A stretch of DNA of 64,000 nucleotides from Cyclobacteriaceae bacterium (GTDB taxonomy: Bacteria > Bacteroidota > Bacteroidia > Cytophagales > Cyclobacteriaceae). Each line of letters begins with the position of its first letter. Position 1 is the first letter of the stretch. The notes below the pieces were generated by a model. The model was not told where the DNA came from and searched no databases. It worked only from the letters and a program-made list of their open reading frames with translations. This document shows positions 16,318 through 64,000 of the stretch, in pieces. The stretch spans positions 2,166,567 to 2,230,566 of the forward strand of contig JABFRS010000001.1 of the NCBI GenBank assembly GCA_013141055.1, written 5' to 3'. A program made the position numbers and the translations under genes.

Positions 16318-17205
16318 CTAATTGACTCCTTGCAATCCTCCCGTATGGAGAATTAGTATAGAAGAATTTTTTTTGAATCTTCCTTTTTTTATTTCTTCCA
16401 TCACTGCCCAGACTAGTTTGCCAGTATAAACATGGTCAAGTGGAATATTATATTGCTCCCTCATCTCAGAAATAAATTTTGTCAGTTGAGGTGTCGTTTT
16501 TGCATAACCACCATGATCATATGAGGTAAGCAATGACCAGTTCGTAAATTTCCTGTCTGAATAATTTTCTATTAGTTCATCGATTTTTCTTTTTAAAAAA
16601 TTTCCATCTTTTAAAACGGATACACCAAGGACCTCGTTCTTACCATCCAGCCCCACGATCATCCCTGCAATAGTTCCTCCTGTACCTACCGGCAAACAGA
16701 CATAATCGAATTCATTATCGGCCAAAAGATGCTTCGCAAACTCAGCACATCCTTTGATTGCAAAATCGTTCGTTCCTCCTTCTGGGATCAGATAAAATTT
16801 TCCAAACTCTTTTATTAATGTCTGGATAAACTGGTCATCTGTTTTCTCCTTGTATGCTGTTCTTGATACATAGTGAAGATGCATCCCTTTATCTCTTGCG
16901 AATGAAAGTGTGGAGTTTAGGGGAAGAGTTTCTTCACCACGGACTACTCCAATACTTTCTAAACCCGCTTCCTTTGCTGCTGACGCCGTAGCATAAATAT
17001 GATTTGAATATGCTCCTCCAAATGTCAACAGCTTATTGTTGCCAAGTCTGATCGCTTCTTCAATATTGTATCTCAGCTTCCAAAGCTTATTTCCCGAAAT
17101 CTCCTGATGATTCAGATCTTCTCTTTTAATAAAAAGCCTGATTCGCTTTTCCTCAAAAGCACTGTTTTTAAGCTCCGTGAAAGGGGTGTTGATATAATTA
17201 ATCAA
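16318..17205 (-). CDS. PLP-dependent enzyme, ACC deaminase / D-cysteine desulfhydrase family
   Basis: A 295-residue fold-type II PLP enzyme. The PLP lysine is in EISGNKLWKLRYN (Lys40), followed by the GGAYSNH motif (about residues 63-69) and the glycine-rich GTGGTIAGM phosphate loop. The family includes ACC deaminase, D-cysteine desulfhydrase and L-cysteate sulfo-lyase, and the three cannot be separated safely here. At 295 residues it is shorter than true ACC deaminases (about 338) and fits the short Bacteroidota homologues. An opposing role in amino-acid scavenging is possible but not shown by context. The start ATG at 17205 lies 46 bases from the divergent radical SAM gene. Confidence 0.85.
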   Translation of the reverse strand: MINYINTPFTELKNSAFEEKRIRLFIKREDLNHQEISGNKLWKLRYNIEEAIRLGNNKLLTFGGAYSNHIYATASAAKEAGLESIGVVRGEETLPLNSTLSFARDKGMHLHYVSRTAYKEKTDDQFIQTLIKEFGKFYLIPEGGTNDFAIKGCAEFAKHLLADNEFDYVCLPVGTGGTIAGMIVGLDGKNEVLGVSVLKDGNFLKRKIDELIENYSDRKFTNWSLLTSYDHGGYAKTTPQLTKFISEMREQYNIPLDHVYTGKLVWAVMEEIKKGRFKKNSSILILHTGGLQGVN

Positions 17206-17239
17206 TGCTATTTATTATAGTAATTACTAATTAATGTAG

Positions 17240-17247
17240 TATTTTTG
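17240..17247 (+). promoter_or_regulatory. -7 promoter box of the PA0069-type radical SAM gene
   Basis: TATTTTTG, an exact consensus match, sits four bases before the GTG start at 17252. Confidence 0.5.
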
Positions 17248-17251
17248 ATTT

Positions 17252-18304
17252 GTGGAGGATTCATACTTCAAAGGTCGGGGAGCACAGATCAAAACAGAAA
17301 ACAAATTTCTGAAAGCCCAATATGTTACTGAACATGTGGAGGGTCTTGACGAACCATTGCTTGAAACACCTGCCACTCAGATCTTCATTGAAAATCCGAA
17401 AAAGATAATTAATAAGGTCGACAGTCCTGATCTTGGAATGGGATACTCTATGAATCCTTATCAAGGTTGTGAGCACGGATGCATTTATTGTTATGCAAGA
17501 AATACACATGAATACTACGGCTTTAGTGCAGGTCTTGATTTTGAAAGCAAGATCATCATTAAGCAAAATGCAGCTCAGGTTCTCGAGCAGCAACTACTTT
17601 CAAAAAACTGGCAGCCCGCTCCTATCATGTTATCAGGCAACACCGATTGCTATCAGCCACAGGAACGTAAGTTTGAACTAACACGCAAGATCCTGCAAGT
17701 AATGGCAAAGTATCGCCATCCAGTAAGTCTCATCACAAAGAACAGTCTCATCACACGCGATATTGATATCCTTCAGGATCTGGCATCCGATAATCTGGTT
17801 CACGTTGCCATTTCAATTACCACACTTAATGAAGATCTGCGTCGTGCAATGGAGCCGCGAACTGCAAGCGCAATAAAGCGACTTAAAACAATTGAAGCTT
17901 TGACAAACGCAAAGATTCCTGTCGTTATAATGACGGCACCAATCATTCCAGGATTAAATCATCATGAAATTCCAATGCTTATTAAAGCTGCCGCTGAACA
18001 TGGAGCACTTTCCGCGGGAATGACTGTTGTCAGATTGAATGGATCTATTGGAAAAATCTTTGAAGACTGGCTTCGTAAAAATTTTCCCGATCGGTTTGAT
18101 AAAGTTTGGAATCAGATCTGTTCGTTACATGGTGGAAGTGTCAATGATTCGAACTTTGGAAGAAGGATGGCTGGTGAGGGAAATATTGCTGATGTTATTC
18201 ATCAATTGTTTCGGTCTTCAAAAAAGAAATATCTCTCAGGTCGCGTAATTCCTCCTTACGATTTGACAAAATTCAGAAAAGGCGGCAATCTCAGCCTGTT
18301 TTGA
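17252..18304 (+). CDS. PA0069-family radical SAM protein
   Basis: A 350-residue radical SAM enzyme of the PA0069/Rv2578c (SplB-related) group. The [4Fe-4S] cluster motif is CEHGCIYCYA (Cys-X3-Cys-X2-Cys, about residues 75-82), preceded by MNPYQGCEHGC as in this family. Downstream are the SGNTDCYQPQE and GLNHHEIP stretches, also characteristic. The reaction is unknown; the similarity to spore photoproduct lyase hints at nucleic-acid repair but is not proof. The GTG start is used because it gives the family N-terminus GRGAQI and is the only start close to the promoter box. It stands alone between divergent and unrelated genes. Confidence 0.88.
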   Translation: MEDSYFKGRGAQIKTENKFLKAQYVTEHVEGLDEPLLETPATQIFIENPKKIINKVDSPDLGMGYSMNPYQGCEHGCIYCYARNTHEYYGFSAGLDFESKIIIKQNAAQVLEQQLLSKNWQPAPIMLSGNTDCYQPQERKFELTRKILQVMAKYRHPVSLITKNSLITRDIDILQDLASDNLVHVAISITTLNEDLRRAMEPRTASAIKRLKTIEALTNAKIPVVIMTAPIIPGLNHHEIPMLIKAAAEHGALSAGMTVVRLNGSIGKIFEDWLRKNFPDRFDKVWNQICSLHGGSVNDSNFGRRMAGEGNIADVIHQLFRSSKKKYLSGRVIPPYDLTKFRKGGNLSLF

Positions 18305-35008: not shown

Positions 35009-38000
35009 ATGGGGAACCAGGTAAAGGTTGTAGATGAAAAGATTGCCTCCTTCCGAAAGAAATATTATCTAAACTTATTTCTTCGTGGAACAATTCTCTC
35101 TTTGTCGTTGCTGTTGGGATATTTTCTCCTGGCAACAGTCATGGAGTATAATCTATGGTTAGGCAAAGGTGTCAGGCTTTCACTCTTTATTCTTTTTTTT
35201 CTAACCGTTGCTTATTGCCTCTATCGGTTTTTGCGCCAACCTCTCACCTGGTGGTTTTCCGGTAACGGGATCGGGAAGGAGCAAAGCGCTCAAATTATCG
35301 GAAAGCATTTCCCAACAATTCAGGACAGGCTTCTAAATTTCCTCCAGTTATCATCTGTTACTGAAGGAAGAAGTGCTCTGCTCGAAGCTAGTCTTGAACA
35401 AAAGGCGTCCGCTTTTGAAAGTTTTGCCTTTGAAAGCATCATCGACTTCAGGGAAAATAAACGCTACTTAAAATATCTCGCGATTCCTCTTCTTCTGTTT
35501 GCTGCCATCTTCGTAATCAACGGAAGCATTTTTACACAAAGCGCTGATCGGATCATTCATTTCAATCAGGAGTTTTCTCCAAAAGCTCCTTTCGATTTCA
35601 TTGTTAAAAATGAACAGCTCCTTGCTTTTCCAAATGAGGACTTCACATTGCGGATCAGCCTGAAAGGCGAGGCCGTTCCCGATGCGGCTTATATTGTTGT
35701 TAATCAGCAACGATTAAAAATGGAGGCAGAAACTCCTGGCGAATTTGTTTACACTTTTGAAAAACTTCAACAGGATTTCAATTTTCAGATTGAGGCGGCC
35801 GGATTTTATTCAAGTCCATACTCTTTAAGAATTGTTAATCGTCCTGAACTGTTAAACCTGAAGGTCCAGCTTCAATTTCCACGATACATCGGTCGTCCTT
35901 CTCAGGATCTTGTCAACGCTGGAAATCTTGAAATTCCTGAGGGAACCAGAATTAAATGGATGGTAAATGCTGCTAACACACGCGCGGCGGTTATTTCTTT
36001 CGCTTCTGGCAAAGGTTCAGAACCAATGCAACAGCTTGATAATCAATCTTTTGAATTCAATAAAAACTTCTTTAATCAGGACGAATATTCAATTGTTCTG
36101 GAGAATGAGAACAGCAAAAATAAAGATCGCATCGTTTATAGCATTGATGTGATCAAGGATCAATATCCATCCATCGTTGTTGAACATCTAAGGGATTCTG
36201 TTCTTTTCAAATCAATTATTCTTGCCGGAAATATTCAGGATGATTACGGCATATCACAGTTGGATCTTCATTATGAGATCAAGGGATCGGGTGATAAAGA
36301 GACGAAAGGAACTATACCATTAACGATTGACAATAAACAGTTTCAGCAGAATTTCTTCTATCCATGGATGCTGGACTCGCTGCATTTAGATGCCGGCGAT
36401 CGCCTTCAATATTATCTTGAGGTTTGGGACAATGATGGAGTGCATGGAAGAAAGTCAACCAAATCGGCAGCTTACCAATTTGAACTTCCCCGTGCGGAAG
36501 AATTTAAAGCAGATATCAAGCGCTCCCAATCCTCCACGGAAAATGAGCTTGAGAAAAGTTTGTCAAAAGCAAAGTCTCTCAAAGAAGCAATTAATGAAGC
36601 TGAGCAAAAACTGAAAGGCAAGCAATCCCTGGACTGGCAGGACAAAAAAATGCTTGAGAATCTTATTCAGCAAAAGAAGAATCTTGATCAGAATGTGAGT
36701 CAGCTCCAGGAACAGAATAAATTACTGGAAGAGAAGAAGAAATCCTTTTCTGAGCAAAACGAAAAAATCCGGGAGAAGTCAGAACAGATACAAAAGTTAA
36801 TGAACGAGCTTCTCAACGATGAGACTAAAAAACTTTTCGAAGAGTTGGAAAAAATGCTGAAAGAAAATCAGGATCCATCCCAGATTCAAAAGATGCTTGA
36901 CAAAATGGATCGTCAGGAGATCAATCTGGAAAAGGGACTTGAAAGAACTCTCGAGTTATTCAAGCAATTGCAATATGACTATAAGCTTGATCAAGCCATT
37001 CAGGAAATAAAAGAGCAAAAAGAAAAGCAGGAAGAATTATTGGAAAAGACCCAGGAACTGGCAGGGGAGAAGCCTGAAAAAAAATCTGACAAGGGTGATG
37101 AAAAAGGCAAGGACGGGGATCAGAAGAACAAGGATAAGAACGATAAAGGCGATAAGCAGGGTGATGAAAAAACCGGGGATCAAAAGGGGAAGGAAGATGC
37201 TCCTTCGAGTGAAGAATTGGCGGAAGAACAGGAAAAATTGAACGAAAAGGCCGATGAGTTCAAGAAAACCATTGAAGAGCTCAATAAGATGGGTGAAGAT
37301 CTTGATGAATCCAAAGATGCTCCCACAGAAGAAGAAATAGAGCAAATGAAGGATCTTCAGAAGCAAAGCAAAGAATCTCTTAAAGAAGGTAGTCCTAAAA
37401 AAGCTGCGGGTACTCAAAAGAAATCAGCTGAAAAAATGAAGCAGATGCAGCAGACTCTTGAAGGAATGCAAAATGAAATGTCAATGGAAATTGATCAGCA
37501 GAATCTTGAATCACTGCGTCAAATCATTCATGGTTTAATAAAACTTTCATTTGATCAGGAATCATTGATCAAAGATTTCAATGCTATTCAGCAAAGTGAT
37601 CCGAAATATGTAACGCTTTCACAAAATCAATTAAAGATAAAGGACGACTCTAAAGTGCTGGAAGACAGCTTGTTAGCTCTTGCTAAAAAAGATCCTTTCA
37701 TGGGTAATGTAGTCACACGTGAAATCGGAGAGTTGAATGGTCACCTGGATAAGGCTGTTGAAAATATAAAAGACAGAAAGAAAAGTAATGCGAGCACCGA
37801 TATGCAATACTCTATGACAAGTATTAATAATCTTGCGCTGATGCTCAATGACCACTTTGATATGATGATGGATATGATGGCGAATGCTATGCCATCGAGT
37901 GGTAAAGGCAAAAAGAAAAAAGGACAACAGAGTCTTGGTGATATGCAGCAAAAACTTAATCAACAGATTGAGCAGATTAAGAACAGCGGAAAGAGCGGAA

Positions 38001-38431
38001 GACAATTATCAGAAGAGTTAGCAAAGATGGCGGCTGAACAGGAACGGATCAGAAGAGCTCTTCATGATATGCAGGAAAAGATGAAACAAAATGGAGGAAA
38101 GTCTATTGGCGGTGATCTGCCTGGTAAAATGGAACAGACCGAGATGGATCTTGTTAACAAACAATTGACTGAACAAACCATTAAAAGACAGAAAGAGATC
38201 TTGACAAGATTACTTGAATCTGAGAAGTCGATGAGGGAACAGGAGCAGGATGAAGAGAGAAAAGGAGAGGCTGCAAAAGAATATCAGAAAGAAATTCCGA
38301 AGGCGTTTGAAGAATACTTACGTTTAAAAGAAAAAGAAGTAGAATTGCTCAAAACCATGCCTCCACGCTTATACCCATACTATAAGAAAGAGGTGAATGA
38401 GTATTTTAAAAGACTTGGCAACCAGAAGTAA
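35009..38431 (+). CDS. Large DUF4175-like coiled-coil membrane protein
   Basis: A 1140-residue protein with three N-terminal membrane segments (about residues 20-45, 55-75 and 150-170). A periplasmic beta-rich region (about 190-500) is followed by a very long coiled coil rich in Glu, Lys and Gln (about 500-1130). Residues about 690-735 are a low-complexity Lys/Asp/Gly run (KGDEKGKDGDQKNKDK and similar) that interrupts the coil. The layout fits the DUF4175-type proteins of Bacteroidota, whose role is unknown. It is followed after six bases by an RsbW-like kinase gene, then ybeY and mnmG, an order recalled from other Cytophagales. Confidence 0.8.
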   Translation: MGNQVKVVDEKIASFRKKYYLNLFLRGTILSLSLLLGYFLLATVMEYNLWLGKGVRLSLFILFFLTVAYCLYRFLRQPLTWWFSGNGIGKEQSAQIIGKHFPTIQDRLLNFLQLSSVTEGRSALLEASLEQKASAFESFAFESIIDFRENKRYLKYLAIPLLLFAAIFVINGSIFTQSADRIIHFNQEFSPKAPFDFIVKNEQLLAFPNEDFTLRISLKGEAVPDAAYIVVNQQRLKMEAETPGEFVYTFEKLQQDFNFQIEAAGFYSSPYSLRIVNRPELLNLKVQLQFPRYIGRPSQDLVNAGNLEIPEGTRIKWMVNAANTRAAVISFASGKGSEPMQQLDNQSFEFNKNFFNQDEYSIVLENENSKNKDRIVYSIDVIKDQYPSIVVEHLRDSVLFKSIILAGNIQDDYGISQLDLHYEIKGSGDKETKGTIPLTIDNKQFQQNFFYPWMLDSLHLDAGDRLQYYLEVWDNDGVHGRKSTKSAAYQFELPRAEEFKADIKRSQSSTENELEKSLSKAKSLKEAINEAEQKLKGKQSLDWQDKKMLENLIQQKKNLDQNVSQLQEQNKLLEEKKKSFSEQNEKIREKSEQIQKLMNELLNDETKKLFEELEKMLKENQDPSQIQKMLDKMDRQEINLEKGLERTLELFKQLQYDYKLDQAIQEIKEQKEKQEELLEKTQELAGEKPEKKSDKGDEKGKDGDQKNKDKNDKGDKQGDEKTGDQKGKEDAPSSEELAEEQEKLNEKADEFKKTIEELNKMGEDLDESKDAPTEEEIEQMKDLQKQSKESLKEGSPKKAAGTQKKSAEKMKQMQQTLEGMQNEMSMEIDQQNLESLRQIIHGLIKLSFDQESLIKDFNAIQQSDPKYVTLSQNQLKIKDDSKVLEDSLLALAKKDPFMGNVVTREIGELNGHLDKAVENIKDRKKSNASTDMQYSMTSINNLALMLNDHFDMMMDMMANAMPSSGKGKKKKGQQSLGDMQQKLNQQIEQIKNSGKSGRQLSEELAKMAAEQERIRRALHDMQEKMKQNGGKSIGGDLPGKMEQTEMDLVNKQLTEQTIKRQKEILTRLLESEKSMREQEQDEERKGEAAKEYQKEIPKAFEEYLRLKEKEVELLKTMPPRLYPYYKKEVNEYFKRLGNQK
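37094..37184 (+). repeat. Imperfect direct repeats in the coiled-coil gene
   Basis: A GGTGATGAAAAA...GGGGATCA module occurs at 37094-37123 and again at 37160-37183, encoding the KGDEKGKDGDQK-like and QGDEKTGDQK runs. This part of the gene is prone to slippage and length variation. Confidence 0.55.
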
Positions 38432-38437
38432 CATTCT

Positions 38438-38842
38438 ATGAAGAACATTCGGATTGAAGTACCTGCATTAACTGAGAATATCAGGATGATCGAAAGCTTC
38501 ATTGATAATGCGCGGGAACAATTTCACCTGGATGATGATATCTACGGCAATATTATGATTGCTGTCACCGAGGCTGTCAACAATGCGATCAAGCATGGAA
38601 GTAATAATGACACCACTAAAAATGTTTTGTTGACTCTTAAGCTTGAAGACTCAATGATCAAGTTTAGAATTGAAGATCAGGGTAAAGGCTTTAATTATGA
38701 GAATTTACCCGACCCCACTTCTCCTGAAAACCTTGAAAAACCAGGAGGAAGAGGCATATTTCTCATGAAACATCTTTCCGACGAAGTCGATTTCAAAGAC
38801 GGGGGAAGGATCGTTGAGCTTAGCTTTTACATGAATGCCTGA
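38438..38842 (+). CDS. RsbW/SpoIIAB-like ATP-binding protein (anti-sigma kinase fold)
   Basis: A 134-residue stand-alone GHKL ATPase domain. The N box is AVTEAVNNAIKHG (about residues 47-59), the G1 box EDQGKGF and the G2 box GGRGIFLMKHL. Proteins of this kind are serine kinases that bind sigma factors or STAS-domain partners. No sigma factor, STAS protein or PP2C phosphatase gene lies nearby, so its partner is unknown. It starts six bases after the DUF4175-like gene and shares one base with ybeY. Confidence 0.88.
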   Translation: MKNIRIEVPALTENIRMIESFIDNAREQFHLDDDIYGNIMIAVTEAVNNAIKHGSNNDTTKNVLLTLKLEDSMIKFRIEDQGKGFNYENLPDPTSPENLEKPGGRGIFLMKHLSDEVDFKDGGRIVELSFYMNA

Positions 38843-39261
38843 TGGCAAACATTCACTTCTTCTCAGAAGGAATCTCTTTCAAATTTCCTCATCCAATTAA
38901 AACTGCCAAATGGCTTAAGAAGGTTGCTTCCAAAGAGGGAAGGAATATCGAATCCCTCACTTACATCCTTTGCTCAGACGACTTCTTAAAATCTCTCAAC
39001 AAGCAGTTCTTAAACCATTCCACCTACACTGACATTCTCTCTTTTGATACTTCTGAGGGAGATCGAATAGAAGGAGAAATCTATATCAGTATTCCCCGGG
39101 TTCGTGAAAACGCCAAAAAATTTGGGCAGAGTTTTGACCAGGAACTAAGAAGGGTAGTAGTACATGGACTTCTTCACTTTCTAGGACACCAGGACAAAAC
39201 GATTCAGCAAAAGACCCAAATGCGAATCAAAGAAGAAGCTTGCCTATCTTTGTGGAAATAA
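38842..39261 (+). CDS. ybeY: Endoribonuclease YbeY
   Basis: YbeY is a zinc-dependent RNase that matures the 16S rRNA 3' end and controls ribosome quality. The 139-residue protein has the zinc site HGLLHFLGHQD (family HGxLHLxGxDH form, about residues 112-122, with the last His replaced by Gln-Asp order) and LNKQFLNHSTYTDILSFD before it. The start ATG shares one base with the stop of the RsbW-like gene (TGATG). The first parS-like site begins directly after its stop. Confidence 0.93.
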   Translation: MANIHFFSEGISFKFPHPIKTAKWLKKVASKEGRNIESLTYILCSDDFLKSLNKQFLNHSTYTDILSFDTSEGDRIEGEIYISIPRVRENAKKFGQSFDQELRRVVVHGLLHFLGHQDKTIQQKTQMRIKEEACLSLWK

Positions 39262-39275
39262 GTTTCACGTGAAAC
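39262..39275. promoter_or_regulatory. parS-like centromere site 1
   Basis: GTTTCACGTGAAAC is a perfect 14-base palindrome equal to the core of the bacterial parS consensus (TGTTNCACGTGAAACA). It lies just after ybeY. ParB bound here would load the segregation machinery near the origin. Confidence 0.8.
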
Positions 39276-39299
39276 GGAATAGTTCTAAAGGATGGAACT

Positions 39300-39313
39300 G
39301 TTTCACGTGGAAC
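39300..39313. promoter_or_regulatory. parS-like centromere site 2
   Basis: GTTTCACGTGGAAC, preceded by T, fits the parS core with the usual variation at the second N position. It is 38 bases centre to centre from site 1 and 14 bases before the mnmG start. Confidence 0.78.
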
Positions 39314-39327
39314 GCACTTTTTAATCT

Positions 39328-41193
39328 ATGTTTCCAGAATACGATGTAATTGTTGTTGGAGCCGGTCATGCGGGCTGTGAGGCTGCTGCTGCTGCTGCCA
39401 ATATGGGGTCGAGGGTTCTATTGGTAACAATGAACATGGCAACCATTGGACAAATGAGCTGTAATCCAGCAATGGGTGGAGTAGCAAAAGGTCAAATTGT
39501 AAGGGAGATCGATGCTCTTGGGGGGTATTCCGGCATCGTATCGGACAAATCAATGATTCAATTCAGAATGTTGAATCGCTCAAAAGGTCCTGCTATGTGG
39601 AGCCCAAGAACTCAAAACGACAGATTGCGCTTTTCGGAAGAATGGAGATTAATGCTTGAACGCACTCCCAATCTGGATTTCTGGCAAGAAATGGTTTCGG
39701 GCTTGTTGGTTGAGAATAATAAAGTGGTCGGAGTAAAGACTGCCCTCGGGCTAGATATAAAAGGTAAATCTGTTGTTCTGACAAACGGCACTTTCCTCAA
39801 TGGGAAAATCCATATAGGAGAAAAGAACTTCGGCGGAGGAAGAACCGCAGAAAAAGCCGCTACGGGACTTACTGAAGATCTGGTACGAATGGGCTTTGAG
39901 TCGGGAAGGATGAAAACAGGAACTCCTCCCCGTGTAGATGGCCGATCTCTTGACTACTCCAAAATGGAAGAACAAAAAGGAGATGAGAACCCAGGGAAGT
40001 TCTCCTTTCTTGAATCAACCAAAGCACCTGAAAATCAACTGAGCTGCTGGATAACCTATACCAATACTGATGTTCACGAAGAGTTGGAAAAAGGCTTTGC
40101 TCAGTCGCCAATGTTCCAGGGAAGAATTCAGGGACTTGGACCAAGATATTGTCCATCCATTGAGGATAAGATCAATCGCTTTGCTGACAGAGATCGTCAT
40201 CAGATTTTCGTTGAGCCAGAAGGATGGAACACTGTGGAAATCTATGTCAATGGATTCTCAACTTCTTTACCTGAAGATGTTCAACACAAGGCACTAACAA
40301 AGATCCCTGGTTTTGAAAAGGCAAGGATGTTCAGACCTGGCTATGCGATCGAGTATGATTACTTTCCACCTACACAGCTTAAGCTTACATTGGAGACGCA
40401 ACTAGTTGAAAATCTGTACTTTGCGGGTCAAATTAATGGAACAACCGGCTATGAAGAAGCAGCATGCCAGGGACTAATGGCAGGAATTAATGCTCATAAC
40501 AAAGTCTTTTCAAAAGATCCATTCATTCTCAAAAGATCAGAAGCTTACATTGGAGTACTCATTGATGATCTTGTAAATAAAGGGACAACGGAGCCTTACA
40601 GAATGTTCACATCAAGGGCAGAGTATAGAATTCTTCTTCGCCAGGATAATGCTGACTTACGATTAACTGAGAAAGGTCATGCGATCGGCTTAGCCACTGA
40701 TGACCGCCTGGCTTCGCTTCATAAAAAGAAAGAAGATCTGAAAACTATCCTTCACGATCTCGCAACGATCAAAGTATTGCCAGAAGAAATAAACGAGGGA
40801 CTCGCTGGACTAAACACTTCGCCGATTCGCGAAAAAACTTCTATATCTAATCTTCTAAGGAGACCAGAAATAGGAGTGAATGAAGTTCAACAACTCCATC
40901 CATCATTGTCGCAATTGATCAACAAATTCTCCAAGGCTGTGGCAGAGCAAGCTGAAATTGTTGTGAAATATGAACCTTACATTGATCGTGAACAGAAAAT
41001 GGCTGAAAAAATTGAAAGCCTTGACAATTACAAAATCCATTCTGACTTTGACTACGATCGTGTAAAAGCTCTTTCATCAGAGGCCCGTGAGAAATTAAAG
41101 AAAATGAGGCCTGCCACCATTGGACAGATGTCACGCATTAGTGGGGTATCTCCCTCTGATGTTTCAGTTATGACTGTTTATCTTGGCAAATAA
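39328..41193 (+). CDS. mnmG: tRNA uridine-5-carboxymethylaminomethyl modification enzyme MnmG
   Basis: MnmG (GidA) with MnmE places carboxymethylaminomethyl groups on U34 of tRNAs. The 621-residue FAD protein has the dinucleotide-binding motif [12 protein letters not shown] (about residues 7-18) and, further on, [23 protein letters not shown], the second GxGxxG-like [13 protein letters not shown] and the C-terminal [19 protein letters not shown]. Its gene often lies near the replication origin in bacteria, which agrees with the DnaA-box cluster 2.5 kb downstream and the parS sites just upstream. Its stop shares a base with the next gene's start. Confidence 0.97.
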
Positions 41194-42071
41194 TGTCTCT
41201 TGAAAAAGTAGAAAGTTGTCCGGTATGCAGCGGAAAATCTTTTCATTCATTCTTGATTTGTAAAGATCATACAACCACTGGCGAGTTGTTTCATGTGGAA
41301 CAATGCAACCAATGTAGAATGACGATTACCAATCCAAGGCCGAAGGAAGAAGAAGCAGGTAAATACTATCAATCAACCTCATACATCTCGCATACATCCA
41401 CAGCTGCGGGAATAATGGATTATATCTATCTGATTGTCAGGCGATTTACTCTTAAGTGGAAGTATTCTCTGATTAAATCTCACATCCAAAGTGGTAAATT
41501 ACTCGATATGGGTGCGGGCACTGGACATTTTCTCAACTACTGTAAAAGTGCAGGCATTGAAGCCTATGGCGTTGAGCCATCACAGGCACGAACAAGTGCT
41601 AACAACAATAATATATTTCAGGCTTTGAATGACCTTCCTGAAGCAAAGTTTCGCGTGATCACACTCTGGCACGTTCTTGAACATGTTTATGATCTTAAAG
41701 AAACTCTGACTCAACTCAAGAACAAGCTGGAAGAAAATGGCACCATTTTAGTTGCCGTACCAAACCTGCAATCTTTTGATGCAAAACATTATCAGGATCA
41801 GTGGGCTGCTTATGATGTTCCGCGACATGTTTGGCACTTTTCAAAGGAAAGTATGAAAGCTTTAATGGAAAATAACGGACTTCATGTTAAAGAGATTATT
41901 CCGATGAAACTGGATTCTTATTACGTAAGTCTTCTGAGTGAAAAGAATATCTCCAATGGAAAATTGTCTTTAACAGGAGTCGTAAAAGGAATTTGGAACG
42001 GATTAAGATCCAACCTGAAAGCGGGTAATGAAATGAACTATTCAAGTCTTATTTATATCATAAAAAAATGA
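41193..42071 (+). CDS. Class I SAM-dependent methyltransferase with N-terminal zinc-ribbon-like motif
   Basis: A 292-residue methyltransferase of the Methyltransf_23 type. The N-terminus has paired cysteines (CPVCSG at about residues 9-14 and CNQC at about 37-40) like a zinc ribbon. MTITNPRPKEEE follows, the usual lead-in of this family. SAM motif I is LLDMGAGTGHFL (about residues 102-113) and WHVLEHVYD gives the post-motif. The substrate is unknown. The Cys region overlaps a parS-like DNA sequence (41287-41302). It overlaps mnmG by one base and the Ig-like lipoprotein by four (ATGA). Confidence 0.85.
   Translation: MSLEKVESCPVCSGKSFHSFLICKDHTTTGELFHVEQCNQCRMTITNPRPKEEEAGKYYQSTSYISHTSTAAGIMDYIYLIVRRFTLKWKYSLIKSHIQSGKLLDMGAGTGHFLNYCKSAGIEAYGVEPSQARTSANNNNIFQALNDLPEAKFRVITLWHVLEHVYDLKETLTQLKNKLEENGTILVAVPNLQSFDAKHYQDQWAAYDVPRHVWHFSKESMKALMENNGLHVKEIIPMKLDSYYVSLLSEKNISNGKLSLTGVVKGIWNGLRSNLKAGNEMNYSSLIYIIKK
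41287..41302. promoter_or_regulatory. Possible third parS-like site inside a coding region
   Basis: TGTTTCATGTGGAACA is a near match to parS (changes in the central CACGTG to CATGTG and one arm position). It lies in the methyltransferase gene, 2.0 kb from the pair and 2.4 kb before the DnaA-box cluster. It may be a weak or decayed site. Confidence 0.4.
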
Positions 42072-43687
42072 AGAGCAGGATAATTAACGTCTTAATTTTC
42101 CTTTTGCTCTACAGTGCTTGCGCAACAATCACTAGTCCGAATGGAGGTCCCAAAGATCTCAAACCACCAAAGCTGGTATCATCAAGTCCATCCAATAATC
42201 AAAAAAATTTCCTGGGGGAAACCGTCATTCTAACTTTCAACGAATACATAAGGCTGAATAATCCTAAAGAAGAAATTATTATTAGCCCATCTGCCGGCAA
42301 GGAGGTTGAAATCAAAATGAGAAAAAATGAAGTCAGCATCAAACCCAAAGATGGTTGGAAGGGAGAAACGACTTACAGCATACAGTTCCGGGAAGGAATA
42401 AAAGATGCATCAGAAGGAAATGCTCCACTCAATTTAAAGCTCGCATTCAGCACAGGCGATATCATTGATTCTCTCAAACTAAGTGGAAAAGTCTTTGATC
42501 TTCCAAAAGGAATCGCCGCCGAAAAAATAACGGTCGCAATCTTTGAAGCTGACACCTTTGACATTTTCTCTGATAGTCCGTCCTACTTTACTAAGACAGA
42601 TAAGGCGGGAAACTTCTCACTTGAGAATATTAAAGAAGGAGTTTATAAGATCTATGCCTTTGATGATAAAAACAAGAATTTGAAAGTTGAGAGCAGAGCA
42701 GAGCGCTATGGCTTCGTCGCCGATAAAATTGACCTGAAGCACAACACCGATTCTCTTGATATGGGACTCGTCATGATGGATTCAAGACCGCTTAAGATCA
42801 ACAGCATTCGAAGCCTCGGAATAAAATCCAGATTACGATTCAATAAATTCATCACTGGATACAAGATCGAAGGCGACAGCAACACCATCAATTCCTTTGG
42901 AGACGATCAGGCAGAAGTTCTCTTCTGGAATCCCCCTACGCTTGGCGACAGTATAAAGCTTCGCATAACAGCCATTGATAGTTTATCGAATGTGACAGAC
43001 TCAATTTTCTACATTAAAAAAACTCCGAACCAACCAAACAATGATGCTTTCAAATGGTCTACTTCCGATCCAACGCTAGAATCTGAAACTGGAAAATTTA
43101 AGGCTATCATGAATTTCAATAAACCTATCACAACCATAAACTTTGATAGCGTTTATATTGAAAGAGACACTGTCAACGTGATACCGATCACCAAAGAAGA
43201 CATAACGATTGATAACCAGAAAAAAACTCTGACCATTGAAAAAGAGCTGGATAAAAAATTATTCAAGGCGGAAAAAGATCCGGTGTTCATATTAAAAACC
43301 GGAAAAGGTTTTGTTTACACAATTGAGAACGATACAAGCAAGGCCACAAGCAGACCAGTCTATACACTATGGCCGGAAGATTCCGGAATAGTACTGGTTG
43401 AAGTAACTACCTCGGAAAAAGATTTCATCATTCAACTAGTCTCCAGCGATGGTAAAATAGCCGCCAGTGTGAGGAACCTCAAAACATTCTCATTCAAAAA
43501 CATAAACCCCACAGAATACCAGCTTAGAGCGATCGTTGATACCAATAAAAACGGAACGTGGGATCCTGGAAATATCTTCAAAGGCATTGAACCAGAAAGG
43601 GTGATTTATTATAAGAACTCCGAAGGGGCAAGATCATTCCCCCTGAGAGCCAACTGGGACGTGGGTCCACTCATCCTCAGGTTCTGA
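42068..43687 (+). CDS. Ig-like domain lipoprotein (SusE/Big_5 type)
   Basis: A 539-residue exported protein with lipobox LLYSAC (Cys18) and the start CATITSPNGGPKDLKPP, a sequence shared by a widespread Bacteroidota family. An Ig-like Big_5 domain (about residues 35-130, VSSSPSNNQKNFLGETVIL) is followed by further beta-sandwich segments and a carboxypeptidase-regulatory-like stretch. Its role is unknown; it is probably an outer-membrane or surface scaffold lipoprotein. Its start overlaps the methyltransferase stop by four bases. It is the last gene before the origin-like region. Confidence 0.82.
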   Translation: MKSRIINVLIFLLLYSACATITSPNGGPKDLKPPKLVSSSPSNNQKNFLGETVILTFNEYIRLNNPKEEIIISPSAGKEVEIKMRKNEVSIKPKDGWKGETTYSIQFREGIKDASEGNAPLNLKLAFSTGDIIDSLKLSGKVFDLPKGIAAEKITVAIFEADTFDIFSDSPSYFTKTDKAGNFSLENIKEGVYKIYAFDDKNKNLKVESRAERYGFVADKIDLKHNTDSLDMGLVMMDSRPLKINSIRSLGIKSRLRFNKFITGYKIEGDSNTINSFGDDQAEVLFWNPPTLGDSIKLRITAIDSLSNVTDSIFYIKKTPNQPNNDAFKWSTSDPTLESETGKFKAIMNFNKPITTINFDSVYIERDTVNVIPITKEDITIDNQKKTLTIEKELDKKLFKAEKDPVFILKTGKGFVYTIENDTSKATSRPVYTLWPEDSGIVLVEVTTSEKDFIIQLVSSDGKIAASVRNLKTFSFKNINPTEYQLRAIVDTNKNGTWDPGNIFKGIEPERVIYYKNSEGARSFPLRANWDVGPLILRF

Positions 43688-44018
43688 TAACTTGTGGATA
43701 AATAACCATAAGTACAGGATCATTCAATAAATTTGAAAATGAGTGGAGGGAACGTGGGTAAAATGCACAGCAAAGCAAAGTTGTCCACACCTGTGGATTT
43801 GTTGAAGACATCCATTAACAAAACCGAATTCTGTTAAGAGTTGGTTTAACATTGACGATAAGAGCCAGTTGGGTCTAAAACTACCAACACATTATGCACA
43901 ATTCACTGACAAAAAGAAATCAAAAGATGCTATCCACAAATGCACAAGGACAATTATTACTATTTTTTATTATTTCTAAAATATAAATCATTAATACTGT
44001 CATGTGTATTGTGGGTAA
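43688..44018. other. Putative chromosomal replication origin (oriC)
   Basis: The 252-base gap (43688-43939) plus the first bases of the next gene hold a cluster of DnaA boxes (consensus TTATCCACA). A perfect one lies at 43693-43701 (minus strand). TTGTCCACA at 43781-43789 (one mismatch) and TGTGGATTT at 43792-43800 (two mismatches) form a palindrome; CTATCCACA at 43930-43938 and TGTGGGTAA at 44010-44018 have one mismatch each. A weaker CGTGGGTAA lies at 43753-43761. An AT-rich tract follows. Plus-strand coding DNA is richer in C to the left and in G to the right in hand counts. dnaA itself is not nearby, which is common in Bacteroidota. Confidence 0.7.
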
Positions 44019-45907
44019 CTATTTCGCTGTCTGGATTTGCCCAGGAATCAGAGGTTAGAATTGCCAATGAATATTTTTTAAAAGGCGACAAGGAAAAAGC
44101 TCTGGTGATGTATCAGGCTCTCTCAAAAAATGTTGAAAACATCCCGGCCATTCATGCCAACTACCTAAACCTTTTACTCGACCTTGGAAAATTCAAAGAG
44201 GCTGAGGACTATGTTGAAAGAGTGTTGAGAAAACAGGATGACCGCATCACATATCGTGTTGACCTGTTAATTGTATACGTGCGGTCAGGAGATCTTCCAA
44301 AGGCTGATAAATATTTTAAGGCGCTTGTAAAAAATTCTTTGCCAGATGTGTACAAAGCGAAATCCATTTCCGATTATCTCGCTGCGCACAATCTTCCGGA
44401 GTATGCAACTACTACTTTACTGGAGATCCGCCAGTCGCTTAACAATCCAGCGATCTTTACTCTCGAAATGGCTAACCTTTATCGAATGCAGGGGAAAAGG
44501 GATAATATGGTGGAGGAGTATCTCAATTATATCACTCAATCTCCAGCCAATATTAATTATGTAAAAAATCTTCTCCAGTTATTTCTGAATAAGCCGGACG
44601 AGCTTGAGTCGTTGGAAAGGATGTTGTATGATAAAGTTCAGAAATTTCCTGACTCGGAAGTTTATTCCGATTTGCTGATTTGGGTGAACCTTCAACAGAA
44701 AAATTTTTACGGTGCTTTCATTCAGGCAAGAGCTTATGATAAGCGATTCCGGAAGGAGGCTTCCAAGACATTGGAAATCGCACAGATCGCCTTGAATAAT
44801 AAAGACTATGAGAATGCTGACAAGAGTTTTTCATATGTCATCAAAGAATTTGCCAACACCGACAATTATCTACCCGCTCGGTTGGGTCTCATCCGTGCAC
44901 GGGAGGCTAAAGTGAAAAGAAAGTTTCCAGTTAACCGGGATTCTGTACGATATCTCACGAAAGAGTACCTGTCTTTTATTTCACGCTATCCTGACAATGG
45001 CAATAGTTATGAAGCCGCTGTCAACGAAGCTCTCCTTCACGCTTACTTTCTTGACGAAAAAGATTCTGCTATTTCGAAACTGACACTCATAGCCAACCAT
45101 CCCAGGGTACCCGCTTACCTTAAATCAAAAGCTAAACTTGAACTTGGCGATATCTATCTTCTTAAAGAGGAGCCATGGGAATCGACATTGCTGTATTCTC
45201 AGGTTGAAAAAAATCAAAGGGATGCACCGCTGGGATATGAAGCTAAGCTGAGAAATGCGAAGCTTTCATATTATAAAGGAGATTTCAGATTGGCTCAGGA
45301 GCATTTGGATATTCTGAAACAGGCGACGACACGGGAGATAGCAAATGATGCAATGGAATTGAGCATGCGCATTAAGGAAAATACAGCAATGGATTCTGTT
45401 GGCGTTTCCCTGAAAGAGTATGCCGCTATTGAATTGCTTCTGGTCCAAAATAAAACGGACGAGGCACTTTCACGCTTGCAGGCTTTTACAGGATTGACAA
45501 AAGTTAAAATATCAAAAAAGGAAGCCACCAATAGAAACATCAAATGGACACCTGATCAGGTTGCGAATGACTCCATACTGGTTGATGCCCCATCCATGGT
45601 TACAAGCTCCATCAAAGATGATGTGTATATGCTTGAAGCTAATTTGCGAATCAAGCGGGCAGAATTTGAGAAGGCAGTGGTATTACTGGAGAAAATTGAA
45701 ACAGAATTTCCAGAGGATATTCTGGCAGATGACGCTTCTTTTATGAAAGCAGATATCTATGAGCACTATTTAAAGAACAAAGAGAAGGCGATGGAAATCT
45801 ATAGGATCTTTCTGGACAAATACCCTGGTAGCGTTTATGCAGCGGAAGCCAGAAAAAGATTCCGTACGTTGCGTGGAGATTTTCAGGGTGATAAAATTGT
45901 TCCTTAA
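43940..45907 (+). CDS. Exported tetratricopeptide-repeat protein
   Basis: A 655-residue helical-repeat protein. The first 35 residues contain a hydrophobic segment (SLILSCVLWVTISLSG and FAQ) and read as a signal peptide with a long N-terminal part. TPR units run through most of the chain (ANEYFLKGDKEKALVMYQAL at about 40-58; KAVVLLEKIETEFPEDILAD near 570; KEKAMEIYRIFLDKYPGS at about 615). It presumably binds protein partners in the periplasm. The ATG at 43940 is the only start with a signal peptide, but it places the AT-rich tract within the gene; a later TTG near 44009 would lose the signal. Confidence 0.8.
   Translation: MHKDNYYYFLLFLKYKSLILSCVLWVTISLSGFAQESEVRIANEYFLKGDKEKALVMYQALSKNVENIPAIHANYLNLLLDLGKFKEAEDYVERVLRKQDDRITYRVDLLIVYVRSGDLPKADKYFKALVKNSLPDVYKAKSISDYLAAHNLPEYATTTLLEIRQSLNNPAIFTLEMANLYRMQGKRDNMVEEYLNYITQSPANINYVKNLLQLFLNKPDELESLERMLYDKVQKFPDSEVYSDLLIWVNLQQKNFYGAFIQARAYDKRFRKEASKTLEIAQIALNNKDYENADKSFSYVIKEFANTDNYLPARLGLIRAREAKVKRKFPVNRDSVRYLTKEYLSFISRYPDNGNSYEAAVNEALLHAYFLDEKDSAISKLTLIANHPRVPAYLKSKAKLELGDIYLLKEEPWESTLLYSQVEKNQRDAPLGYEAKLRNAKLSYYKGDFRLAQEHLDILKQATTREIANDAMELSMRIKENTAMDSVGVSLKEYAAIELLLVQNKTDEALSRLQAFTGLTKVKISKKEATNRNIKWTPDQVANDSILVDAPSMVTSSIKDDVYMLEANLRIKRAEFEKAVVLLEKIETEFPEDILADDASFMKADIYEHYLKNKEKAMEIYRIFLDKYPGSVYAAEARKRFRTLRGDFQGDKIVP
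43951..43998. other. AT-rich tract, possible DNA-unwinding element
   Basis: 48 bases with very few G or C, between the DnaA box at 43930 and the one at 44010. It lies inside the signal-peptide codons of the TPR gene, if that gene starts at 43940. Confidence 0.5.
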
Positions 45908-63406: not shown

Positions 63407-64000
63407 GAACGCTTCGAATTTTACTGGAAAAAGAGTTTAGGCAAATATTTCGTGATCCATCGATCCTGCGCATTATTTTCCTCATGCCGATCGTTCAATT
63501 GATCGTGATGCCATTGGCTGCCGACTACGAAGTTAAAAATGTTAAACTTTGTATCGTCGACTTTGATCATTCTTCATACTCACAGAAGCTTGTAAATAAA
63601 ATTACGTCTACAGACTATTTTCAGTTGGTCGACTATACAGACTCATATGACAAAGCATTGAAGTATGTTGAGAATGATGAAGCAGATCTTGTGCTGCAAA
63701 TTCCATCTTCGTTTGAAAAGCAGATTGTGAAAGAAGATAAGTCAACCCTATTCATGTCTTTGAACGCAATCAATGGAGCGAAAGCAAATCTTGGAGGATC
63801 ATATCTGAGAAGTATCATTAGTGATTTTAACAGAGAAGTGAGATTAGAATGGCTTCAATTACCAAAGTTAAATCCTCAGCCAACGATTCAGGTAACGTCA
63901 CTCAACTGGTTTAATCCAACCATGAACTACCAGATCTTCATGGTTCCTGGAATTCTTGTGATCTTGGTTACAATGGTGGGCGCTTTCTTATCTGCCTTGA
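63403..64000 (+). CDS. ABC-2 type transporter permease 2 (partial, cut by window end)
   Basis: The first 199 residues of a second permease, with no stop before the window end. It starts MRTLRILLEKEFRQIFRDPS at the ATG at 63403, overlapping the previous stop as ATGA. TM1 (IIFLMPIVQLIVMPLAADY) is followed by an extracytoplasmic domain to about residue 180, then the start of the next helix (IFMVPGILVILVTMVGAFL). It pairs with permease 1 and completes a YbhFSR-like exporter. Substrate unknown; drugs or lipids are usual for the type. Confidence 0.88.
   Translation, partial: MRTLRILLEKEFRQIFRDPSILRIIFLMPIVQLIVMPLAADYEVKNVKLCIVDFDHSSYSQKLVNKITSTDYFQLVDYTDSYDKALKYVENDEADLVLQIPSSFEKQIVKEDKSTLFMSLNAINGAKANLGGSYLRSIISDFNREVRLEWLQLPKLNPQPTIQVTSLNWFNPTMNYQIFMVPGILVILVTMVGAFLSAL

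Follow-up and report, generated by a model that had tools for sequence, protein, structure and literature searches.

A probable chromosomal replication origin near mnmG in a Cytophagales bacterium, with a predicted unwinding element that overlaps the start of a TPR protein gene

Systems comparable with the locus analysed here include the mnmG-linked origins of Flavobacteriaceae and the origin of Prevotella intermedia, a Bacteroidetes species outside the Cytophagales. In the passages of the respective reports that deal with the origin, oriC is placed at or beside mnmG, with Ori-Finder and GC skew in agreement, in the Flavobacteriaceae Mariniflexile litorale (PMC11278836) and Algorimicrobium (PMC12843772). 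For Mariniflexile, the same passages state that dnaA did not fit the skew, whereas the figure legend labels mnmG as the terminus, contradicting the text (PMC11278836). In P. intermedia, a box cluster lies at the skew switch far from dnaA, and the authors call this common in Bacteroidetes in the section concerned (PMC4755523). The third system, the basal unwinding system (BUS), is described for Bacillus subtilis and others, in the part of the source that defines it, as tandem DnaA boxes, the upstream one being the stronger, with a spacer of at most 16 bp and thereafter central-A trinucleotides on one of the strands (PMC8287927).

The window, that is, the whole 64,000-nucleotide stretch of DNA that was analysed, corresponds to C1:2,166,567–2,230,566, C1 being one of the two contigs that make up the 4.65-Mb genome. 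The nearest relatives of its MnmG protein are found in Cytophagales/Cyclobacteriaceae metagenome assemblies (73–85% protein identity; L077–L081). Judged from sequence, window positions 43688–44018 are very probably the DnaA-dependent chromosomal oriC of this Cytophagales (Cyclobacteriaceae-like) bacterium. The first-pass annotation had reached the same reading, which is supported by the corrected skew, the box density, conservation, the parS neighbourhood and 50-bp helix instability. The features of mnmG-linked origins of Bacteroidota are present, namely, mnmG within a few kilobases, a remote dnaA and a conserved position. The annotated features, in window coordinates, are as follows.

39261–39276, no strand: parS-like palindrome in the ybeY–mnmG gap, two mismatches to the consensus
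39299–39314, no strand: parS-like palindrome in the ybeY–mnmG gap, one mismatch to the consensus
39328–41193, plus strand: mnmG (gidA)
41287–41302, no strand: third parS-like site, one mismatch from the consensus and lying within a methyltransferase gene
42068–43687, plus strand: gene for an Ig-like (Big_5) protein, left neighbour of oriC (open reading frame and family match)
43688–44018, no strand: probable oriC, made up of the clustered DnaA boxes, the unwinding region and the reverse box that closes the module (boxes, skew, density, conservation, stability)
43693–43701, minus strand: DnaA box TTATCCACA, perfect, the only perfect one in the window
43781–43789, plus strand: DnaA box TTGTCCACA, one mismatch
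43792–43800, minus strand: weak DnaA box AAATCCACA, two mismatches, facing the TTGTCCACA box
43892–43900, plus strand: DnaA box TTATGCACA, one mismatch, absent from the first-pass annotation
43930–43938, plus strand: DnaA box CTATCCACA, conserved, preceding the unwinding region and ending 1 bp before the TPR ATG
43938–43946, plus strand: weak tandem box AAATGCACA, three mismatches, containing the start codon (ATG 43940–43942), likewise a new addition
43940–45907, plus strand: gene for a TPR protein with a signal-peptide-like start (by eye), codons 1–26 overlapping oriC (open reading frame, alignment, codon test)
43949–43998, no strand: predicted DNA unwinding element, 88% AT, with the lowest 50-bp helix stability both in the window and in the 1.93 Mb sampled
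43954–43968, plus strand: DnaA-trio-like run TTA TTA CTA TTT TTT (other strand 3'-AAT AAT GAT AAA AAA-5')
44010–44018, minus strand: reverse DnaA box TTACCCACA, past the unwinding region and within the TPR gene

The 252-base gap at 43688–43939 had been singled out as the longest in the window, which holds for gaps between the main open reading frames, the stretch 63407–64000 reaching the window edge. Scans for promoters and terminators near oriC returned no more matches than in shuffled sequences. Within 43688–44018, 326 bp carry seven DnaA boxes: five have no more than one mismatch, and two are weaker, of which AAATGCACA has one base in common with the box at 43930. The perfect box on the minus strand and the boxes at 43930–43938 (plus) and 44010–44018 (minus) were found where they had been reported. 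The supposed head-to-head pair at 43781–43800 does consist of two facing boxes, but one is good and the other weak (two mismatches). An equal density of boxes elsewhere in the genome had been named as an argument against an origin; within the sampled 1.93 Mb (42% of the genome), no place is comparable, the five-box cluster being the densest and unrelated 350-bp stretches holding at most three. With 595 boxes of no more than one mismatch counted over 1,930,564 sampled bases, 0.108 are expected per 350 bp, and the Poisson estimate for five boxes is about 1e-7 per stretch, or roughly 6e-4 over the sampled DNA. Genome-wide, perfect boxes are barely enriched (38 versus 31 in a reversed-pattern control), whereas one-mismatch boxes are enriched (1333 versus 931). 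A smaller group of three boxes, one of them perfect, spans 145 bp between open reading frames at C1:2,158,669–2,158,813 (L159:8669–8813), 7.8 kb left of the window and about 51 kb from oriC, and is possibly a DnaA-titration or regulatory site. A pair of perfect boxes at C1:2,019,258 and 2,019,566 was considered as an origin and rejected: it lies within open reading frames and its skew fit is 39.8 log-likelihood units worse.

Along contig C1, negative GC skew prevails over the first 2.13 Mb and positive skew thereafter to about 3.0 Mb, in the raw values as well as at third codon positions. When a change point was fitted to 445 open reading frames with gene orientation included as a covariate, the switch fell at C1:2,210,466, which is window position 43,900 (support 2,199,818–2,210,466; bootstrap 95% interval 2.186–2.219 Mb). 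Over 0–3.0 Mb, the best cut of the corrected fit is at 2,200,665, 10 kb to the left, with the oriC site 1.25 log-likelihood units behind. The raw cumulative skew forms a broad trough at about 2.13–2.20 Mb with its minimum at C1:2,129,200 (window position −37,366), 81 kb to the left, perhaps because nine consecutive open reading frames at 2,112–2,127 kb lie on the minus strand. Over the part of the genome analysed, the expectation of a skew minimum near 44 kb of the window is borne out by the orientation-corrected switch but not by the raw curve. In the relative G024, the best cut is at 2,565,262 and the equivalent site at 2,574,800, 9.5 kb off, is 3.7 log-likelihood units behind, 2.9% of cuts equalling it. 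In G042, the best cut, at 2,651,141 (support 2.64–2.88 Mb), outscores the site (3.365 Mb) by 5.45 units, and 18% of cuts equal the site; here the best cut lies 0.5–0.7 Mb from the locus, so that skew points elsewhere, which counts against an origin and is possibly due to rearrangement. On a coarser grid, the site scores −10.4 (G024) and −7.1 (G042) relative to the best cut. For contig C2, a tentative terminus estimate gives a cut at 421 kb (support 233–426 kb); as the two contigs are unordered, no replichore balance is derived from it. Within the window, positions 36001–39000 display a strong AT skew (0.27) and a GC skew of 0.16–0.17, mostly over the open reading frame at 35009–38431.

The presence of mnmG and parS-like sites within 5 kb of the candidate origin, which the first-pass annotation had pointed out, is confirmed by the gene at 39328–41193 and the three palindromes listed above, scored against the parS consensus. 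Across the genome, a scan allowing up to two mismatches returned eight distinct places (11 matches versus 6 in a reversed-pattern control). Both one-mismatch places of the genome and one of the six others lie 2.4–4.4 kb left of the box cluster. Seven relatives were scanned with the core palindrome, and five of them (G024, G031, G042, G050 and G055) carry a pair of sites 3.9–5.1 kb upstream of the TPR gene; all nine zero-mismatch sites of the seven relatives fall in these pairs. In G074, there is a single one-mismatch site 3.3 kb from the TPR gene, and in G066 the core-palindrome scan found no parS site near that gene. Given that match counts are close to those of reversed-pattern controls in several genomes, it is the position of the sites that constitutes the evidence. 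By this measure, the sites form an origin-proximal parS cluster beside oriC, made up of putative ParB sites.

To assess conservation, we surveyed 80 mnmG loci with flanks of up to 10 kb, calling a cluster at a score of at least 4, with a perfect box counting 2. Such clusters are present in 24 loci and absent from 56. In 15 of the 24, all with names belonging to Cytophagales, the cluster lies 1.5–2.8 kb downstream of mnmG; eight others are 3.5–5.9 kb downstream and one is upstream. Three of the 15 near clusters (L083, L084 and L106) come without a TPR match, and where a TPR relative was detected (13 of the 80 loci), box density ahead of that gene is 12.05 per kb versus 0.445 per kb elsewhere. 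The TPR protein itself has a match, in some cases partial, in 73 of 77 related genomes, own genome included. The genus comparison, drawn from among the matches listed and including the own genome, covers 29 loci for box counts and 28 genomes for the start region; L194, in which a contig end cuts the gene, was left out of the 29-locus count, and G046 (L187) was left out after it. Summed over the 29 loci, 106 boxes fall within the 440 bp that surround the beginning of the TPR gene, compared with none inside the gene and one upstream in equal stretches. Individual loci hold zero to six boxes, the zero being L187, which is cut by a contig end. G046 has two TPR-protein matches of nearly equal quality, on contigs C26 and C65; the flank upstream of the former is cut short by the contig end, and the latter, among the matches listed, carries the exact box–ATG module.

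Helix stability was computed in 50-bp and 80-bp windows. In 50-bp windows, 43949–43998 is the sole place of such instability in the sampled DNA; in 80-bp windows, the gap at 17186–17194 is slightly less stable than the oriC tract. The 80-bp stability minimum of the window, at 17186–17265, lies between two divergent open reading frames. The AT-rich tract proposed earlier does exist, but it is located inside the TPR open frame (ATG at 43940) and not in the gap, so that oriC is not purely 'between' the Ig-like and TPR genes, as had been claimed. In the own genome, the trio-like run counts five triplets after a 15-bp spacer from the box (shuffle P 0.006), a BUS being defined by three or more trios no further than 16 bp from a DnaA box. 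Across the genus, scanned to 24 nt, strict DnaA-trio runs of at least three occur in 8 of 28 genomes, the mean run being 2.0 as against 1.3 for shuffled sequences and 1.5 for the complementary strand; loose runs, defined by a central T on the strand of the box, occur in 19 of 28. Because it is clear in the own genome and weak across the genus, the DnaA-trio was left out as membership evidence.

The most unusual aspect of the locus is the relationship between the origin and the TPR start codon. The last forward box ends 1 bp from the TPR ATG in 20 of 28 genus genomes and overlaps it in another 3; in three of those 23 (G024, G032 and G020), the forward box has two mismatches. The order of the module in the genus is forward box, weak tandem box, AT-rich tract and a TGTG element, which in the own genome is the reverse box. 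At nine more distant loci, 51–68 bp separate the last forward box from the ATG and the AT-rich tract lies in this interval; in four of the nine a reverse box sits at or just after the ATG. From this comparison we infer that the DNA arrangement came first and that, in this genus, an upstream shift of the start codon brought the gene into it. With its start codon at the border of the last forward box, the gene would use the melting tract as its first 25 or so codons, and the unwinding tract seems to be coding in this genus, where it would specify the N-terminus of a probable secreted TPR protein. Several sequence properties bear on this assignment. Residues 3–12 are 43% Asn or Tyr, compared with 12% in the body of the protein, making for an odd N-terminus, and nucleotide identity in alignment columns 1–25 is 6.4 sd above the amino-acid-identity trend (26 genomes). 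Third positions of identical amino acids agree at 0.75 in these columns versus 0.38–0.55 elsewhere (26 genomes), and codon 2 is CAC in all 17 genomes with His there, whereas the rest of the genes have 75 CAC versus 71 CAT. These codon-constraint figures are only indicative, since base composition (78% AT) inflates them and the genomes are related; G023 was left out of the alignment and of the Asn/Tyr and AT figures, and both G023 and G039 out of the codon test.

One reading that would restore a conventional intergenic origin is that the TPR gene starts downstream, leaving codons 1–25 untranslated. More distant relatives do start after the AT-rich tract, and such a tract is expected of an unwinding element whether translated or not. 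However, in 26 of 28 genomes (all but G023 and G039) an uninterrupted frame begins with an ATG at the box or no more than 7 bp from it, although codons 2–25 are 76% AT. In 12 of the 28, codons 2–30 lack any further ATG, GTG or TTG, and the own genome has none before codon 24. Furthermore, the hydrophobic stretch of the signal-like sequence, identified by eye, needs the upstream start. We consider a downstream start unlikely and retain the upstream ATG as the predicted one. A second alternative holds that the boxes are a DnaA-regulated promoter or a datA-like titration site of the TPR gene and that the true origin is elsewhere. In 23 of 28 genomes, the forward box nearest the gene adjoins or runs into the start codon, as a repressor site might, the three-box group some 51 kb away could be seen as another such site, and both the uncorrected skew minimum 81 kb to the left and the skew of G042 depart from the locus. 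Yet the corrected skew switch falls on the site, parS-like sites adjoin it and recur near the TPR gene in six of seven relatives (as a pair in five), and the most unstable sampled 50 bp belong to the module. Moreover, control of the start codon fails to explain the conserved element, given that the box is 51–68 bp from the ATG at the nine distant loci. With this evidence in hand, a purely regulatory or titration role appears very improbable, and an origin at 43688–44018 is the reading we prefer.

An origin adjoining dnaA is common in other phyla, and default annotation would place it there in this genome as well; the record of G042 indeed begins at dnaA (C1:412). Here, dnaA is at C1:1,039,477, 1.17 Mb from the box cluster, in agreement with the earlier remark that it is not beside the candidate oriC. 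Against an origin at dnaA, the 3.5 kb around the gene contain a single one-mismatch box and skew is negative on both sides of it. In G024, dnaA lies 55 log-likelihood units below the best cut, and in G042 no fit of the right sign exists at dnaA, the coarser grid giving −20.3. This placement can therefore be practically dismissed. Besides dnaA, G024 contains seven weak DnaA-family matches of near-equal score, perhaps insertion-element helper ATPases.

Taking 43688–44018 as the origin, initiation might proceed as follows. DnaA would bind the boxes at 43693–43938, and the 43930 box with its weak tandem partner would load a DnaA filament onto the AT-rich tract at 43949–43998. From the 43930 box, DnaA may spread along the trinucleotide run at 43954–43968, by analogy with BUS; the helix would melt at 43949–43998 and helicases would be loaded, with the reverse box at 44010 closing the module. 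ParB bound to the parS-like sites 2.4–4.4 kb to the left would then segregate the new origins. DnaA binding could compete with expression of the TPR gene, and transcription through the tract could help to open the origin. The combined scenario, in which the unwinding element is translated, DnaA at the box blocks TPR expression and transcription assists opening, thereby coupling envelope-protein synthesis to replication timing, is rather doubtful at present and offered tentatively.

For Cytophagales, the locus would represent a conserved oriC with linked parS-like sites, and records rotated to dnaA, such as that of the relative G042, would misplace the origin in this group. Because of the coding overlap, a search confined to intergenic regions would miss the unwinding element. 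The overlap also raises the question of whether one stretch of DNA serves replication initiation and translation initiation at once. The titles and abstracts that searches of open-licence PMC papers for such an overlap returned showed none. What appears to be new is an apparently translated unwinding element, with translation being predicted, that is conserved through a genus.

Compared with the described systems, the present locus resembles the Flavobacteriaceae origins in its mnmG linkage; relative to the passages on those origins, the anatomy, that is, the boxes, unwinding element, parS-like sites and overlap, is given only here. It shares with the origin of P. intermedia, as presented in the relevant section, a box cluster and a skew switch remote from dnaA (PMC4755523). 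The likeness to BUS, as defined in the part of the source cited, extends to tandem boxes, a 15-bp spacer and a trinucleotide run (PMC8287927). By contrast, the present locus differs from BUS in overlapping a start codon and coding sequence, and its trio is weak in many relatives. Since Bacteroidota are already known, from the reports quoted, to include species with mnmG-linked origins remote from dnaA, the location itself is a known one, and it is the coding overlap that constitutes the variant.
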